Part shown: in pieces, positions 2,350 through 50,731 of the stretch
Numbering within the stretch: the stretch's first letter is position 1
Layout of the letters: each line of letters starts with the position of its first letter
Source: Crocinitomicaceae bacterium
GTDB taxonomy: Bacteria; Bacteroidota; Bacteroidia; Flavobacteriales_D; Crocinitomicaceae
Assembly (NCBI GenBank): GCA_014762645.1
Contig: JABURP010000045.1
Coordinates: 1 to 53,027 of the forward strand
Length of the DNA stretch: 53,027 nt
Direction of reading: 5' to 3'
Notes under the pieces: generated by a model
Told to the model about the DNA's origin: nothing
Seen by the model: only the letters and a program-made list of their open reading frames with translations
The model's database searches: none
Program-made: the position numbers and the translations under genes

Positions 2350-2380
2350 GAGTGAATGTACGGGTTGGATACAGTAAGAA

Positions 2381-2409
2381 TTGCGCTAATTTAGAATAAA
2401 GTAGTTTTG
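2381..2409 (+). promoter_or_regulatory. Bacteroidota-type promoter of rdgB
   Basis: A TTG (2381-2383) lies 18 nt upstream of TAGTTTTG (2402-2409), matching the TTTG / TAnnTTTG consensus of the Bacteroidota primary sigma factor. A TTG codon in frame with rdgB falls inside the -7 box, so translation must begin downstream, at the ATG at 2476. Confidence 0.6.
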
Positions 2410-2475
2410 TCAACTAAATTAAGCCAATTTTATTGCTCACATTATTATTTTTCGACTAATTGTACACAGCCTATT

Positions 2476-3054
2476 ATGAAACTCATCTTTGCTACACAAA
2501 ACCAGCACAAAGCAAAAGAAATCCAACAAATGATGCCAGTGGGTATTGAAATAAAGACCTTACGGGATATAGGTTGTCACGAAGATATTCCGGAAACAGC
2601 TGATACGCTGGAAGGTAATGCCGCTATGAAAGCTCAGTATGTGGTGGATCATTATAAAGTAAATTGCTTTGCGGATGATACAGGCCTGGAAATTGACTCG
2701 CTCAATGGCGAACCTGGTGTGTATTCCGCTCGGTATGCCGGTGAGGAGAAAAATGCCGAAAACAACATGGATTTAGTCCTGAAAAAGTTGAATGGGGTTC
2801 AAAACAGAAAAGCACGCTTCAGAACTGTCATCTCATTAATGTTAGATGGTGAGGAGCATCAGTTTGAAGGAATTGTCAATGGAACGATTCGGCAAGAGCG
2901 ATCAGGTACTGAGGGGTTTGGCTATGATCCCATTTTTCAGCCGGATGGCTACACGCAAACCTTCTCTGAAATGAGCATGGAAGAGAAAAATAAGATTTCC
3001 CACCGCGGGAGAGCCATTCAAAAACTGGTGAAATATTTATCGTCCTTGAGCTGA
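2476..3054 (+). CDS. rdgB: Non-canonical purine NTP pyrophosphatase (RdgB/HAM1)
   Basis: Hydrolyses dITP, XTP and related damaged purine triphosphates to the monophosphate, keeping them out of DNA and RNA. The protein starts MKLIFATQNQHKAKEI, the family N-terminal nucleotide-binding strand and loop. It contains FADDTGLEIDSLNGEPGVYSAR-type residues (written here in shortened form; positions about 67-88) and EGFGYDPIF with a later SHRGRA near the C-terminus, all signatures of the HAM1 family. The length of 192 residues is normal. A longer frame opens at a TTG at 2407, but that codon is within the promoter -7 box, so the ATG at 2476 was chosen. It is transcribed alone and faces the nuclease gene tail to tail. 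Confidence 0.93.
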   Translation: MKLIFATQNQHKAKEIQQMMPVGIEIKTLRDIGCHEDIPETADTLEGNAAMKAQYVVDHYKVNCFADDTGLEIDSLNGEPGVYSARYAGEEKNAENNMDLVLKKLNGVQNRKARFRTVISLMLDGEEHQFEGIVNGTIRQERSGTEGFGYDPIFQPDGYTQTFSEMSMEEKNKISHRGRAIQKLVKYLSSLS

Positions 3055-3069
3055 GGAAAAATGTTGATG

Positions 3070-4014
3070 TCAGAAATCTGAATAACTGCTACTGTATCCG
3101 TGACTGAACATTCCTGAGAACAAATGACCCGAATAGAGATTCCCCTCAATCTTTTTCTGTTTTCTTCGTGCTACATAGAAATTTGTAGATGTCAGCAGTT
3201 CTAACTCATCTATGGATTTTAAATTCTCTAATAGTTCATTTTCAAAATCCCGGATTTCAGCTCTGACATCATCATTTTTCACGTAAAATACCCAGTAATA
3301 CCAGTTTCCTGATGTTGATTGAAAGAAAAATATCTTGTAAAACCAGGATGGAACAGCAACCTTATCGTAAATATATTTCGGGTTTTCATCAACTACAGAT
3401 CCGGTGATCATATACGCTCTCTTAACACTATCCTGTCTACTCACGCCATTCACATAGCTTTCAATTGTTCTCCATTCCTGCCTGTTCATGTATCCACATT
3501 GGGGAGCCATATTACTCATCACAAATGAATTGAGATGCTCCACCAGGTTCTTCTTAGAATCATCAGCAGGCTTTAAATGACCACGATCAAATCCACTTCG
3601 TGTATAATCGGCGTGGGAAATTTGTTGGTTTGCCGGCAATCTTGGATCAGGTCTGAAACAATCAACCCGGGTTAATTCATTATCCCGTTCACTGCTGTTA
3701 GACATTTTATACTGTACCCAAATTGGAACGTGAAAAACAGTGTCATATCCACAGACATAATGGGGTGCATACAAAATCACCACATGCGGATTTTTAGATG
3801 TAGGTAAACCAAACGGCGCATGTACTTTTTGAAGTGAATCCTTCCAATAGAGCTGGGCAGATATTAGCATAGAATCAGCTAACGACGCATCTTCTATGCA
3901 ACAATCATTACCACCTGCACCTACTCTTTTTCGGGTGAGTTTTTTGCAATTTTCCTGACCTTCAAGTTGAACGGTGAACAGAAATAAAATGCCGGTTACC
4001 AGATACTTTATCAT
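3070..4014 (-). CDS. Secreted DNA/RNA non-specific endonuclease (NucA/EndA family)
   Basis: A 314-residue protein with an N-terminal signal peptide (MIKYLVTGILFLFTVQLEGQ). The catalytic motif DRGHLKPADD lies near residue 143, and the downstream Asn-containing segment SNMAPQCGYMNRQEW near residue 167 carries the metal-binding asparagine of the beta-beta-alpha-metal nucleases. These enzymes cut single- and double-stranded DNA and RNA without sequence preference, usually outside the cytoplasm. The start ATG overlaps the stop of the upstream membrane-protein gene by 4 bp (ATGA), so the two are translationally coupled. There is no T9SS sorting domain, so the protein is probably periplasmic or secreted by another route. 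Several cysteines suggest disulfides. Confidence 0.88.
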   Translation of the reverse strand: MIKYLVTGILFLFTVQLEGQENCKKLTRKRVGAGGNDCCIEDASLADSMLISAQLYWKDSLQKVHAPFGLPTSKNPHVVILYAPHYVCGYDTVFHVPIWVQYKMSNSSERDNELTRVDCFRPDPRLPANQQISHADYTRSGFDRGHLKPADDSKKNLVEHLNSFVMSNMAPQCGYMNRQEWRTIESYVNGVSRQDSVKRAYMITGSVVDENPKYIYDKVAVPSWFYKIFFFQSTSGNWYYWVFYVKNDDVRAEIRDFENELLENLKSIDELELLTSTNFYVARRKQKKIEGNLYSGHLFSGMFSHGYSSSYSDF

Positions 4015-4769
4015 GAGAATTGATCCAGGTAATCTTTTGAAATCACATCTCTTTCAGCCAATTCTTTGAGCAATGGCAAAGCATGATCATAGCGCATAAC
4101 CACTTTTGATTTTTTCCCTTTTCCAATAAATACTGCTTTGAGCACTCCAGTTTGAGAAAAACTATTTTGATCGAATACATTGATACGCGTAAAGGCAATA
4201 TCCTCCAATTCATTCCAGGCAAAAAATTTGCTCCTGAGCTTTTTAAAAGTAATTCCTTCATTATTCGTATAGATTCTGTATCCGCCTGTAGCCAAAATAT
4301 AAATGTAGAAAAACAATGGAATAACCAAAACCGCCAGGCATATTAGGTATAGCCATAACTGTACACTGCGCGCTAATCCGGCTCCTGCATATCCAAATGG
4401 TAAGTATTGCAAATCATAGACATTTCTTCCTTCGTCATCTACGGCAGTTGAAGTTTCTCTTTTATCTTCCCAAATTACCGTGGCAGGAACTCGTTGCTTG
4501 AGGTCATTTAAAAAATCTCCGGTTGACGGACTCGTAACCTTGGCCTGTATCCATGGAAACTTCATCTCCTTTCCGTTTTCAGAAAAATGGATGCGAAATG
4601 AAATTTCATCTCCTAAACCCATTGGTGTTTTTTTTATGGCAACTTTGGTTACTTGAGTGAGTGGAGTTTCCTTAATTCTCCGCATTAAGTGGCAATACAC
4701 ATTTCCAGACTCAAATCCGACCTCATAACTCACCACAGAACTTTTTATACTGTAAACTTTATCTTCCAT
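4011..4769 (-). CDS. Membrane protein of unknown function, upstream partner of the nuclease
   Basis: A 252-residue protein I do not recognise as a named family. The first 125 or so residues are soluble and beta-rich. One strong hydrophobic segment, LWLYLICLAVLVIPLFFYIY, lies at about 139-158. The C-terminal 90 residues (YRIYTNNEGITF, then a Trp-Asn-Glu-Leu-Glu-Asp turn) resemble a bacterial PH-like domain, as in many small membrane-anchored Bacteroidota proteins. Its stop codon overlaps the start of the NucA-type nuclease by 4 bp, so the two are made together. A role in handling or protecting against the nuclease is possible but has no direct sequence support. Confidence 0.6.
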   Translation of the reverse strand: MEDKVYSIKSSVVSYEVGFESGNVYCHLMRRIKETPLTQVTKVAIKKTPMGLGDEISFRIHFSENGKEMKFPWIQAKVTSPSTGDFLNDLKQRVPATVIWEDKRETSTAVDDEGRNVYDLQYLPFGYAGAGLARSVQLWLYLICLAVLVIPLFFYIYILATGGYRIYTNNEGITFKKLRSKFFAWNELEDIAFTRINVFDQNSFSQTGVLKAVFIGKGKKSKVVMRYDHALPLLKELAERDVISKDYLDQFS

Positions 4770-4812
4770 ATATTTATTTGACTGGTCTCCAATTTATAAA
4801 TAAAAAATTACG

Positions 4813-4841
4813 TTTGCCCTGCGCGCATTCACTTATCTTTG
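4813..4841 (+). promoter_or_regulatory. Bacteroidota-type promoter of the DUF4293-uup unit
   Basis: TTTG at 4813-4816 and TATCTTTG at 4834-4841 are separated by 17 nt. The latter is an exact TAnnTTTG match, 17 nt before the ATG at 4859. Confidence 0.6.
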
Positions 4842-4858
4842 CCTAAAAATTTTAAACT

Positions 4859-5344
4859 ATGATCCAACGCAAACAGACCATTTATCTGGCACTAGCCTTT
4901 ATTTGTGTCACACTTGTTTTGTTTTTTCCGATCTACAACATATCTGCGGAAAGTTCTGGTGAAGTTTACCACGGTGCATTGAGCGTGCATGGAATAGAAG
5001 GTGAAGATTATGCACAAGCATTTCCACTCTACCTGGTAATAGCCGTGATGTTATTGTTGTCCGCTGTCGGAATTGCTCTGTATAAAAATCGCCCACGGCA
5101 ATTAATGATATGTAGGATTAACCTGATCATTCATTTTCTGGTAGCAATTACGCTAACAACATTCTACTATGTCGGGAAAGGAATGATTATAGAACAACTA
5201 GCCGAAAACGGATACACCAATCCTGAATTTAGTGTAGGCATTGGATATTTTTTACTCATTGCAGCAATTCCGTTTATATTACTGGCTATCCGTGGTATTC
5301 GAGCAGATGAGCAATTATTGAAATCTATCGATCGTATTCGATAA
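4859..5344 (+). CDS. DUF4293 family membrane protein
   Basis: A 161-residue inner-membrane protein with four hydrophobic segments (about residues 7-27, 57-77, 83-107 and 127-145). The opening MIQRKQTIYLALAFI is the hallmark of DUF4293, a Bacteroidota family with no assigned biochemistry. The loop between segments 1 and 2 is probably periplasmic. The gene has its own promoter and is followed after 24 bp by uup, so the two are probably co-transcribed. Nothing in the sequence indicates a catalytic role. Confidence 0.8.
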   Translation: MIQRKQTIYLALAFICVTLVLFFPIYNISAESSGEVYHGALSVHGIEGEDYAQAFPLYLVIAVMLLLSAVGIALYKNRPRQLMICRINLIIHFLVAITLTTFYYVGKGMIIEQLAENGYTNPEFSVGIGYFLLIAAIPFILLAIRGIRADEQLLKSIDRIR

Positions 5345-49312: not shown

Positions 49313-49453
49313 GAAACAAAGATGGGAATAAGTTTGAGTTTAATCACTCATAGCAACAAGGTGACATAGATCATTTCAAATAATGAAAAGCATCACAACC
49401 CGCTCAATAAACACTTCCTACTTTTATGCATGATTTACTTCAATTAATTGATT

Positions 49454-49996
49454 ATGGATACCATACCAACCATACATTCAATGAAAGAACTCATCAAAAA
49501 TCTCACTTATGGAGGTGGATATGATGGTTATCAAGGGATTTTAAATTCGTTAGATCTCGATAAAAACGAAATTCATGAACTCACTGAGTGGAGCAATGAA
49601 CATTATACACGGATTTGCTTAGCGAAGCTGGACGTACTTGAGTTATATCTGATTTGTTGGGAAAACGACCACAAAACACCAATTTATGACTTAAATAATG
49701 TAAATGCCTGGATTTATATCATAGAAGGGGAATTAACAGAAGAAGTGTACCATAAACCATCTGGAAATAACCCCCCGAATTTAAAAGATACTAATAAGCT
49801 TAAACAAGGAGATTTTACAGAAACCACTGATTCAACGAATATGCACAGGCTCGTCAACTCATATCCGGGACGCACGATTAGCCTGCATATTTTCATGGAT
49901 AACATGGACAAGTGGCATGTTTATGACCCCAAGAAACAAAGCATGCGGGAAGAAACCTTCAATGCTCATCACACAAGAGATTTGACACTGCAATAA
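49454..49996 (+). CDS. Cysteine-dioxygenase-like cupin lacking two iron-binding histidines
   Basis: A 180-residue protein that aligns from memory with cysteine dioxygenase type I. HYTRICLAKLDVLELYLICW (residues 50-69), IIEGELTEEVYHKP, MHRLVNSYPGRTISLHIF (residues 130-147) and DKWHVYDPKKQSM match the enzyme segments YTRN, ILCW, LQGNLKE, LHRVEN and SLHLY. The HDH pair that binds iron in the enzyme is replaced by Tyr78-Asp79-Leu80, so two of the three ligands are missing; the third (His131) remains. The Cys-Tyr crosslink residues are also absent (Ala, Phe). An active dioxygenase is unlikely. It is transcribed alone, with a strong terminator. The start is the ATG at 49454, not the in-frame TTG 6 bp earlier. 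Confidence 0.72.
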   Translation: MDTIPTIHSMKELIKNLTYGGGYDGYQGILNSLDLDKNEIHELTEWSNEHYTRICLAKLDVLELYLICWENDHKTPIYDLNNVNAWIYIIEGELTEEVYHKPSGNNPPNLKDTNKLKQGDFTETTDSTNMHRLVNSYPGRTISLHIFMDNMDKWHVYDPKKQSMREETFNAHHTRDLTLQ

Positions 49997-50025
49997 ATAC
50001 ATTTACTACGGTAAATATTTCTTCA

Positions 50026-50067
50026 AAAAATCCTGTAGGAATTTATCCCTGCAGGATTTTTATTTTT
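50026..50067 (+). terminator. Rho-independent terminator after the cupin gene
   Basis: AAAAATCCTGTAGG pairs with CCTGCAGGATTTTT (one G-T pair), with an 8-nt loop and trailing TATTTTT. Confidence 0.88.
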
Positions 50068-50169
50068 CCTCATTTTTGGTTAATTTATAAAGTAACATAC
50101 TAGATGCCCGAAGATTAACCCTTGAGGGCCCAAAAATGACATATACATAAATTAAAACAAACCAGAATT

Positions 50170-50607
50170 ATGAAACTTACACACACTAGAAAACTATTTG
50201 GCCTGGTATTTTTGATTGGTATTTTTATATCCTGTCAAAAATATGATGATGGCGAAGTTATTAAGAACACATATACAGGCGGTATTTTTGTCAATACCGT
50301 GAGCGAACACCCGGAAGGTGAATTTATTGGTGATTTTGACACCGGTGAATATATTTTTGCCTGGGACAATAAGGAAAAAAGAGCCGAGGCACAATTACAA
50401 TTGGAAGATGCAACTTCTGGTTCCGTCCAAATGATCATTCGCGACAAGCAAAATCGCGTTATGTTAGATGAAACCTTACTATCAACTGATGGTCCAAGTT
50501 CATTCAATTTGATCACCGGATCAGGAACTCCAGGCGTTTGGGAGGTCAGCTTAGTACTGATTAGTTACTCCGGTGAAGGCAGTTACGCCGTTGAACCAGA
50601 GGACTAA
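50170..50607 (+). CDS. Small lipoprotein of unknown function
   Basis: A 145-residue exported lipoprotein. MKLTHTRKLFGLVFLIGIFISCQK has a lipobox with Cys at residue 22. The mature domain is short, acidic and beta-rich (FVNTVSEHPEGEFIGDFD, AEAQLQLEDATSGSVQMII, SFNLITGSGTPGVWEVSLVL). I do not recognise the family. It lies between the cupin terminator and the VanW gene and seems to be its own unit. No catalytic residues stand out. Confidence 0.6.
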   Translation: MKLTHTRKLFGLVFLIGIFISCQKYDDGEVIKNTYTGGIFVNTVSEHPEGEFIGDFDTGEYIFAWDNKEKRAEAQLQLEDATSGSVQMIIRDKQNRVMLDETLLSTDGPSSFNLITGSGTPGVWEVSLVLISYSGEGSYAVEPED

Positions 50608-50731
50608 AATTGATTCGACATATTGCGAATAATCAGTTTTGCAGTTCGGTAAATAAATGAACTGATGGAAGTTGCATGTATCACGTGCAAACGACATTTG
50701 AAATCTATATTTTGGTTTCAAATGATAAGAC

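Follow-up and report, generated by a model that had tools for sequence, protein, structure and literature searches.

The DNA analyzed here is a 53,027-nucleotide stretch from a Crocinitomicaceae bacterium, and this whole stretch is referred to as the window. Near its end lies a gene, P0001, for a protein that resembles cysteine dioxygenase (CDO) but has Tyr and Leu in the place of the His-x-His pair that holds the catalytic iron of CDO. This raises the question of whether P0001 is an enzyme of some kind, a decaying gene copy, or a protein that has kept the CDO fold for another purpose.

The P0001 reading frame was intact. It runs on the + strand from the ATG at 49454 to a stop codon at 49994-49996 and encodes 180 aa, and a TTG located two codons upstream of the ATG is a possible alternative start. 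The protein matched the Pfam family CDO_I (PF05995) with an E value of 1.4e-12 and 48 bits, which is above the curated cut-off of 23, and mammalian CDO chains matched it in phmmer at E 3e-10. No NCBIfam family was found for P0001. The base composition of the gene was similar to that of its neighbors, no sigma-70-type promoter was found in a promoter search at the gene, and a terminator-like hairpin with a T-rich tail begins 30 bases past the stop codon. A preliminary description of this DNA had taken the terminator to mean that the gene was expressed. The hairpin is present as described, but a terminator alone is no proof of expression, and the gene is missing from this locus in two congeners. 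The features of the locus are listed in Table 1.

Table 1. Positions in the window of P0001, its active-site residues and the flanking features
Feature	Coordinates	Strand	Basis
CDO-like protein P0001, Y-x-L for the H-x-H iron pair	49454..49996	+	Pfam, phmmer, AlphaFold
Tyr51-Thr-Arg53 (CDO Tyr58/Arg60, substrate carboxylate pair), kept	49604..49612	+	alignment, tally
Tyr78 (TAT) at the position of iron ligand His86	49685..49687	+	alignment, tree, tally
Leu80 (TTA) at the position of iron ligand His88	49691..49693	+	alignment, tally
Ala85 at the position of Cys93 (crosslink)	49706..49708	+	alignment, tally
His131, sole iron ligand kept (CDO His140)	49844..49846	+	alignment, tally
His145 (CDO His155, kept) and Phe147 (CDO Tyr157, changed)	49886..49894	+	alignment, tally
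Terminator-like hairpin, T-rich tail	50026..50061	+	1 found vs 0.5 (sd 0.7) in shuffles
Small lipoprotein-like ORF	50170-50607		
Stretch with the P0001 gene and the small lipoprotein-like ORF, absent in two congeners	49313..50731	.	locus comparison (L272, L273)

The structure of P0001 was modeled with AlphaFold2 by using 48 homologs, and the resulting model had a pLDDT of 94.5 and a pTM of 0.89. Its best solved matches were rat, mouse, and human CDO type 1 (Foldseek TM about 0.87). Compared with mammalian CDO 6u4l, the model gave a VIA Z of 24.2 and an rmsd of 2.1 Å over 174 aligned residues, and the full length was covered. The related cupin thiol dioxygenases were structurally less similar to P0001 than CDO1: 3-mercaptopropionate dioxygenase and other bacterial thiol dioxygenases came next (Z about 20), and B. 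subtilis YubC (Z about 18), ergothioneine dioxygenase (Z 15.6), and PCO/ADO (Z 14) scored lower. Among these relatives, 3-mercaptopropionate dioxygenase, ergothioneine dioxygenase, and PCO are 3-His metal enzymes. Unlike P0001, ADO is also such an enzyme, according to PMC8503633. On this model, the fold of P0001 is the CDO fold, which is more specific than the cupin fold in general; the absence of other folds from the structural matches does not count against those folds. The CDO fold proposed earlier was thus confirmed, and P0001 has both the whole fold and the sequence family in common with CDO1 (PF05995; PDB 2ic1, 4ubg, and 6u4l).

CDO residues were mapped onto P0001 from the phmmer alignment with mammalian CDO. 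The residue numbers used agree with those in PMC3765361, PMC8503633, and PMC8050391. In CDO, the metal ligands are H86, H88, and H140 (PMC3765361); the substrate is stabilized by Tyr58 and Arg60, and Arg60 makes a salt bridge to the cysteine carboxylate (PMC8503633). P0001 also has the Tyr58/Arg60 pair (Tyr51, codon TAT, and Arg53, CGG), His140 (His131, CAC), and His155 (His145, CAT). The three-His iron site is missing, however, because its residues are Tyr78, Leu80, and His131, and the two crosslink residues are changed as well, Cys93 to Ala85 (GCC) and Tyr157 to Phe147 (TTC). A one-base reading error cannot account for Leu80, because its codon, TTA, has no base in common with either His codon at any of the three positions. 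Three points were as the preliminary description had them: two of three iron ligands lost, the crosslink residues lost, and the substrate-arginine region (YTR) retained.

The changes are not equal in weight. The Ser153-His155-Tyr157 network is incomplete in P0001 (Ser143 and His145 are kept, and Phe147 replaces Tyr157), and PMC8050391 describes this network as not needed for CDO activity. The same paper says that bacterial CDOs use an unmodified Tyr at the crosslink, so little can be concluded from a missing C93 by itself; Cys93 was present in 61/61 canonical homologs that we tallied (57 from Bacteroidota), with Cys among the criteria by which they were sorted. Because just one of the three is left, a CDO-type iron site in P0001 is very unlikely, and catalysis of the cysteine dioxygenase reaction is unlikely, judging from the sequence.

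To place these losses among relatives, residues were tallied in 146 rows representing 131 distinct sequences, one of which is P0001. Canonical sequences, defined by H88 and C93, numbered 61; another 60 had Tyr or Phe at H88 (the H88-less group), and 9 had H88 but not C93. The canonical sequences kept H86, H140, H155, Y157, Y58, and R60 in 61/61 cases. In the H88-less group, position 88 was Tyr in 48 sequences and Phe in 12, and C93 was lost in all 60 (Ala in 45, Gly in 12, Ser in 2, and Leu in 1). H86, H140, and R60 were kept in 60/60 members and Y58 in 54/60, and H155 was Asn in 37. Since two ligands and the arginine were strictly kept while Tyr and Phe exchanged at the third ligand position, the pattern suggests that the site of this group was changed but maintained rather than decayed. 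In our search of the open-licence PMC literature, no paper described a CDO-like family that lacks iron ligands or connected such a family with two-component systems, and no published name for one was found.

Some members departed from the group pattern. L102 and L197 belong to the H-D-Y lineage yet have His at position 88 (H-D-H with Ala93 and H-G-H with Thr93, respectively), which is possibly a re-gain of the iron ligand. In L186, L187, and L189, His-x-Arg replaces Tyr-x-Arg. The reading frames of L094 and L197 have long N-terminal extensions that are probably not protein. The first alignment was made without L015, L037, L038, and L040-L042 (all but L015 distant) and L075 was dropped because it is identical to L047; the actinobacterial matches L127-L143 lie outside the alignment, and genome-search matches that were given no locus were aligned in part.

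P0001 shares with the H88-less CDO-like proteins of Bacteroidota the loss of H88 and C93 and the retention of Y-T-R and H140 (Leu80, Ala85, Arg53, and His131). It differs in having neither the H86 that all 60 keep nor their Tyr or Phe at position 88. P0001 is therefore a diverged relative of the group, not a typical member.

The tally also bears on whether P0001 might be a functional Fe(II) CDO that obtains its ligands from other residues or from a partner subunit, an explanation that we consider highly improbable. The fold is fully kept and His73 lies near the old ligand loop, but His73 aligns with the His five residues before H86 in human CDO, which is not among the ligands named in PMC3765361. 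In addition, the position is Gln in most homologs (57/60 H88-less and 41/61 canonical), and P0001 is without the decarboxylase or transporter neighbor typical of canonical CDOs. On this alignment, His73 was rejected as a likely substitute ligand.

Trees were all built without the ligand columns. The 93-row tree kept 29 canonical rows and left out L064, L212, L213, L191, L197, L073, L018, and L118, and an earlier tree had left out 17 loci as redundant or distant. Position 86 changed once on the 93-row tree, and H86 was lost in P0001 only among the 131 distinct sequences. The preliminary description had considered that the Tyr/Leu pair might be conserved in homologs, which would have supported a new function. 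This idea failed, as the pair was private to P0001 in this set. The nearest relatives, at most 39% identical over 132 columns, keep His-x-His as His-Asn-His or His-Asp-His, a finding that the same description had associated with a single decayed copy.

The sister of P0001, with support of 98/94, was a small subfamily of 148-aa CDO-like proteins: L122 (the same as L248), L250, and L253. L122 and P0001 have stretches such as AWxYIxxGELTEEVY and HxLxNSxxGR in common, and the subfamily also has Ala at position 93. In contrast to P0001, it keeps H-N-H or H-D-H, has YSK for YTR (Lys for Arg60), and is missing the C-terminal segment of P0001. The profile match of two sister proteins (G1148 and G1145) extended about 10 codons beyond their stop, so they may have been shortened at the C-terminus only recently. 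The P0001 branch had a length of 0.66 changes per site. Joining P0001 to the canonical CDOs was not rejected (p-AU 0.253), which leaves its position outside their clade uncertain.

Closer relatives were sought in several collections. No close orthologue of P0001 was found in viral contigs, and a profile search of 395 genomes of the phylum gave no closer relative, with 148 bits for the best other match when the G1041 and G1081 matches were left out. Three congeners had no match to P0001, and the profile gave distant CDO-like matches only. In two of these congeners (G001 and G003), the flanking gene order is the same as in the window, but P0001 and the small lipoprotein ORF that follows it are missing, and the flanking ORFs are separated by 101 and 121 bases compared with 1,419 in the window. 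Thus, the copy was either gained here or lost there. A search for repeats and mobile-element ends around this 1.4-kb stretch yielded no convincing repeat. In G001 (L272), an ORF that is 33% identical to the lipoprotein-like ORF is located about 7 kb further on.

The strongest rival explanation is that P0001 is a decaying CDO-like copy, laterally gained or left over, that has lost its function and whose reading frame is open by chance or recency. We regard this as unlikely, even though the private ligand losses beside relatives with His-x-His, the empty locus in two congeners, and the absence of the gene linkage described below would all be expected of such a copy. The scarcity of relatives points the same way: among 399 genomes of the order, the best identity besides P0001 itself was 35%, with no close orthologue, and GTDB r220 contigs yielded no relative in a single-protein scan, a method that detects only close ones. 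Decay is countered by a 180-aa frame that has stayed intact on a branch of such length, by the confident predicted fold (pLDDT 94.5), and by the retention of nine core residues that are conserved in homologs (Trp46, Tyr51, Arg53, Glu63, Cys68, Trp86, Gly92, His131, and Asn135, in alignments that include P0001). The composition like that of the neighbors, the terminator-like hairpin, and a Leu80 codon three bases away from any His codon also argue against it.

Gene context was counted at 103 distinct loci, comprising 48 canonical loci (4 of them, L123-L126, not from Bacteroidota), which cover part of the 61 canonical sequences, 50 H88-less loci, among which the window is counted, and 5 others, one of which (L174) had an unusable ORF. 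The counts are descriptive because the reference proteins were picked after the loci had been viewed, and many loci end at contig boundaries. A PLP decarboxylase (CSAD-like) was found within 1.5 kb at 37/48 canonical and 0/50 H88-less loci, and a sodium/solute symporter was found within 4 kb of 28/48 canonical CDO genes. This arrangement of CDO, PLP decarboxylase, and symporter looks like a hypotaurine/taurine module; it was seen in Bacteroidota at L151, L152, L154-L157, and others. The neighbors of canonical Bacteroidota CDO genes thus differ from those of P0001.

At H88-less loci, the neighbors were mostly of another kind. A PAS kinase was located within 1.5 kb at 30/50 loci, a Crp-type regulator within 4 kb at 33/50 (34 by tblastn, which adds L192, without a Crp part), a full-length fusion of a response regulator and Crp (RR-Crp) at 29/50, and ccoN within 1.5 kb at 4/50. 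In contrast, the PAS kinase, Crp-type, and ccoN references had matches at 0/48 canonical loci. Fisher tests gave p values of 2e-14 for the Crp-type regulator and 2e-17 for the decarboxylase, computed with the count of 34 and with relatedness ignored. The H88-less loci are not independent because 28 of the 29 full-length RR-Crp linkages came from one Flavobacteriales lineage.

The order CDO-like gene, PAS kinase, RR-Crp recurred in 28 loci of that lineage, and the trio was also present in G041 (L149). Over the 30 kinase loci, the CDO-like ORF and the start of the tblastn match to the kinase are 0-73 bases apart, and the kinase and regulator domains were confirmed with Pfam on examples. Many Flavobacteriales MAGs (L076-L110; e.g., L083, about 2358-5170) have operon-like runs that combine genes for an H-D-Y CDO-like protein, a PAS histidine kinase, and a 353-aa RR-Crp fusion, and genes for universal stress proteins are often close by. 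At L192 (7092-8183; G403), a protein with a receiver and a histidine-kinase ATPase domain is encoded beside an H-N-Y CDO-like gene.

Other relatives had different neighbors. The ccoN gene of cbb3 oxidase adjoins L147, L148, L193, and L194, as well as L265 and L266, and an Fnr/Crp-type gene lies 2.5-5.4 kb off at the first four of these loci, where measured, and likewise at L265 and L266. The L186 locus contains genes for an MBL-rhodanese protein, TauE, a rhodanese, a thioredoxin, and a Crp regulator; an MBL-rhodanese protein is encoded at L187 and an SQR-like reductase at L189. The CDO-like genes L186, L187, and L189 seem to lie within a sulfide/persulfide oxidation locus. No reference match was obtained at 10/50 H88-less loci, among them the window and the three sulfide-type loci.

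The sister subfamily of P0001 showed linkage as well. In 3/3 distinct genomes (L260, on the contig that also carries L122; L261; and L262), its gene is divergent from a PAS kinase and RR-Crp pair, with the L262 kinase reading as two ORFs. In L262 and L260, the convergent neighbor is a different PLP decarboxylase, split into two ORFs in L260; this arrangement would be compatible with both metabolism and signaling. For P0001 itself, no linked kinase, Crp-type regulator, cbb3, or sulfide gene was found in the window. None of the reference proteins (kinase, RR-Crp, Crp, Fnr, universal stress protein, ccoN, PLP decarboxylase, and symporter) had a match at E 1e-5 in the whole 53 kb, and a Pfam scan of the ten neighbors of P0001 found no kinase, Crp, Fnr, universal stress protein, ccoN, PLP decarboxylase, or symporter.

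The preliminary description had also allowed for an enzyme with another chemistry. Such a protein might handle thiols or persulfides, either metal-free or with a metal held through His131 and other groups. We judge this improbable. Arg53, Tyr51, His145, and His131 do occupy pocket positions by alignment, MBL-rhodanese and SQR-like genes are found at the loci of some relatives, and the convergent decarboxylase of two sister genomes would suit an enzyme, but P0001 shows no new catalytic residue that is conserved, the old site has one His and no acidic pair, and the genes linked to the group are mostly regulators.

In the genome from which the window was taken, no canonical H-x-H/Cys copy of CDO_I was found in the assembly, which is 98.99% complete. 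The other CDO-like copies of P0001's size, L001 and L002 on contigs 9 and 5, are both H88-less proteins of the H-D-F kind, and the fourth CDO_I match in Pfam is a distant 287-aa protein. This 287-aa family (L004 on contig 24 of G000, L041, and L042) is common to the genome and two congeners; its members extend at the C-terminus beyond a single CDO_I-like domain and keep H-N-H. A complete PAS kinase and RR-Crp pair is located on contig 17, where the neighbors are a FixG-type gene, a P-type ATPase gene, and a universal stress protein gene, with no CDO-like gene adjoining. The RR-Crp gene is present in all three congeners (one copy is partial, at a contig end), which are without a P0001-type gene.

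Taken together, these data are best explained by a CDO-fold protein without a catalytic iron site that stands near a probably regulatory, CDO-derived group of Bacteroidia, a reading to which we assign a probability of about 45%. P0001 is probably a diverged relative in a CDO-derived, regulatory, ligand-binding group and probably a sensor rather than an enzyme. The group would have drifted from taurine-pathway enzymes to regulation. Its members would be soluble cupins in which the kept Tyr-Thr-Arg pocket binds a small thiol, persulfide, or amino acid, and they would report this ligand to PAS histidine kinase/RR-Crp systems or to Crp/Fnr regulators of the responses to low oxygen and sulfide. In P0001, the two-His remnant of the group is also gone, and ligand binding would occur without a metal. 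Its partner might be the contig 17 kinase and RR-Crp pair of the same genome, which is a guess.

The thiol or amino acid sensor suggested in the preliminary description thus gains from the related group, which is linked to two-component, Crp-type, cbb3, and sulfide genes, but not from the 53-kb window, where no such match was present. Gene linkage alone is not function. Further findings count against the regulatory reading: P0001 is without a close orthologue (best 39%), so that conservation of its pattern cannot be shown; the sister proteins keep H-x-H and have Lys for Arg60; the convergent decarboxylase of two sister genomes would suit a metabolic role; and the congeners keep RR-Crp without a P0001-type gene.

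A broader reading, which we offer tentatively and hold to be somewhat doubtful, is that former CDOs of Bacteroidota serve as ligand-sensing partners of low-oxygen and sulfide signaling, with P0001 as a metal-free end point. The systems concerned would be the PAS kinase with its RR-Crp fusion, Fnr/cbb3, and persulfide oxidation, and cysteine or persulfide would be read through the old substrate pocket and the two-His remnant. PCO, a thiol dioxygenase of plants, senses oxygen by catalysis. ADO, its animal counterpart in this respect, does so too, according to PMC8503633. If the broader reading is true, a means of sensing thiols or oxygen without catalysis would have arisen from the same ancestor as these catalytic sensors, in a bacterial branch that kept the substrate arginine and two histidines and dropped the third ligand, next to oxygen- and sulfide-response genes. 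Moreover, because Pfam scores the H88-less proteins as CDO_I, the breakdown of cysteine to taurine may be predicted too often in genomes of this kind.
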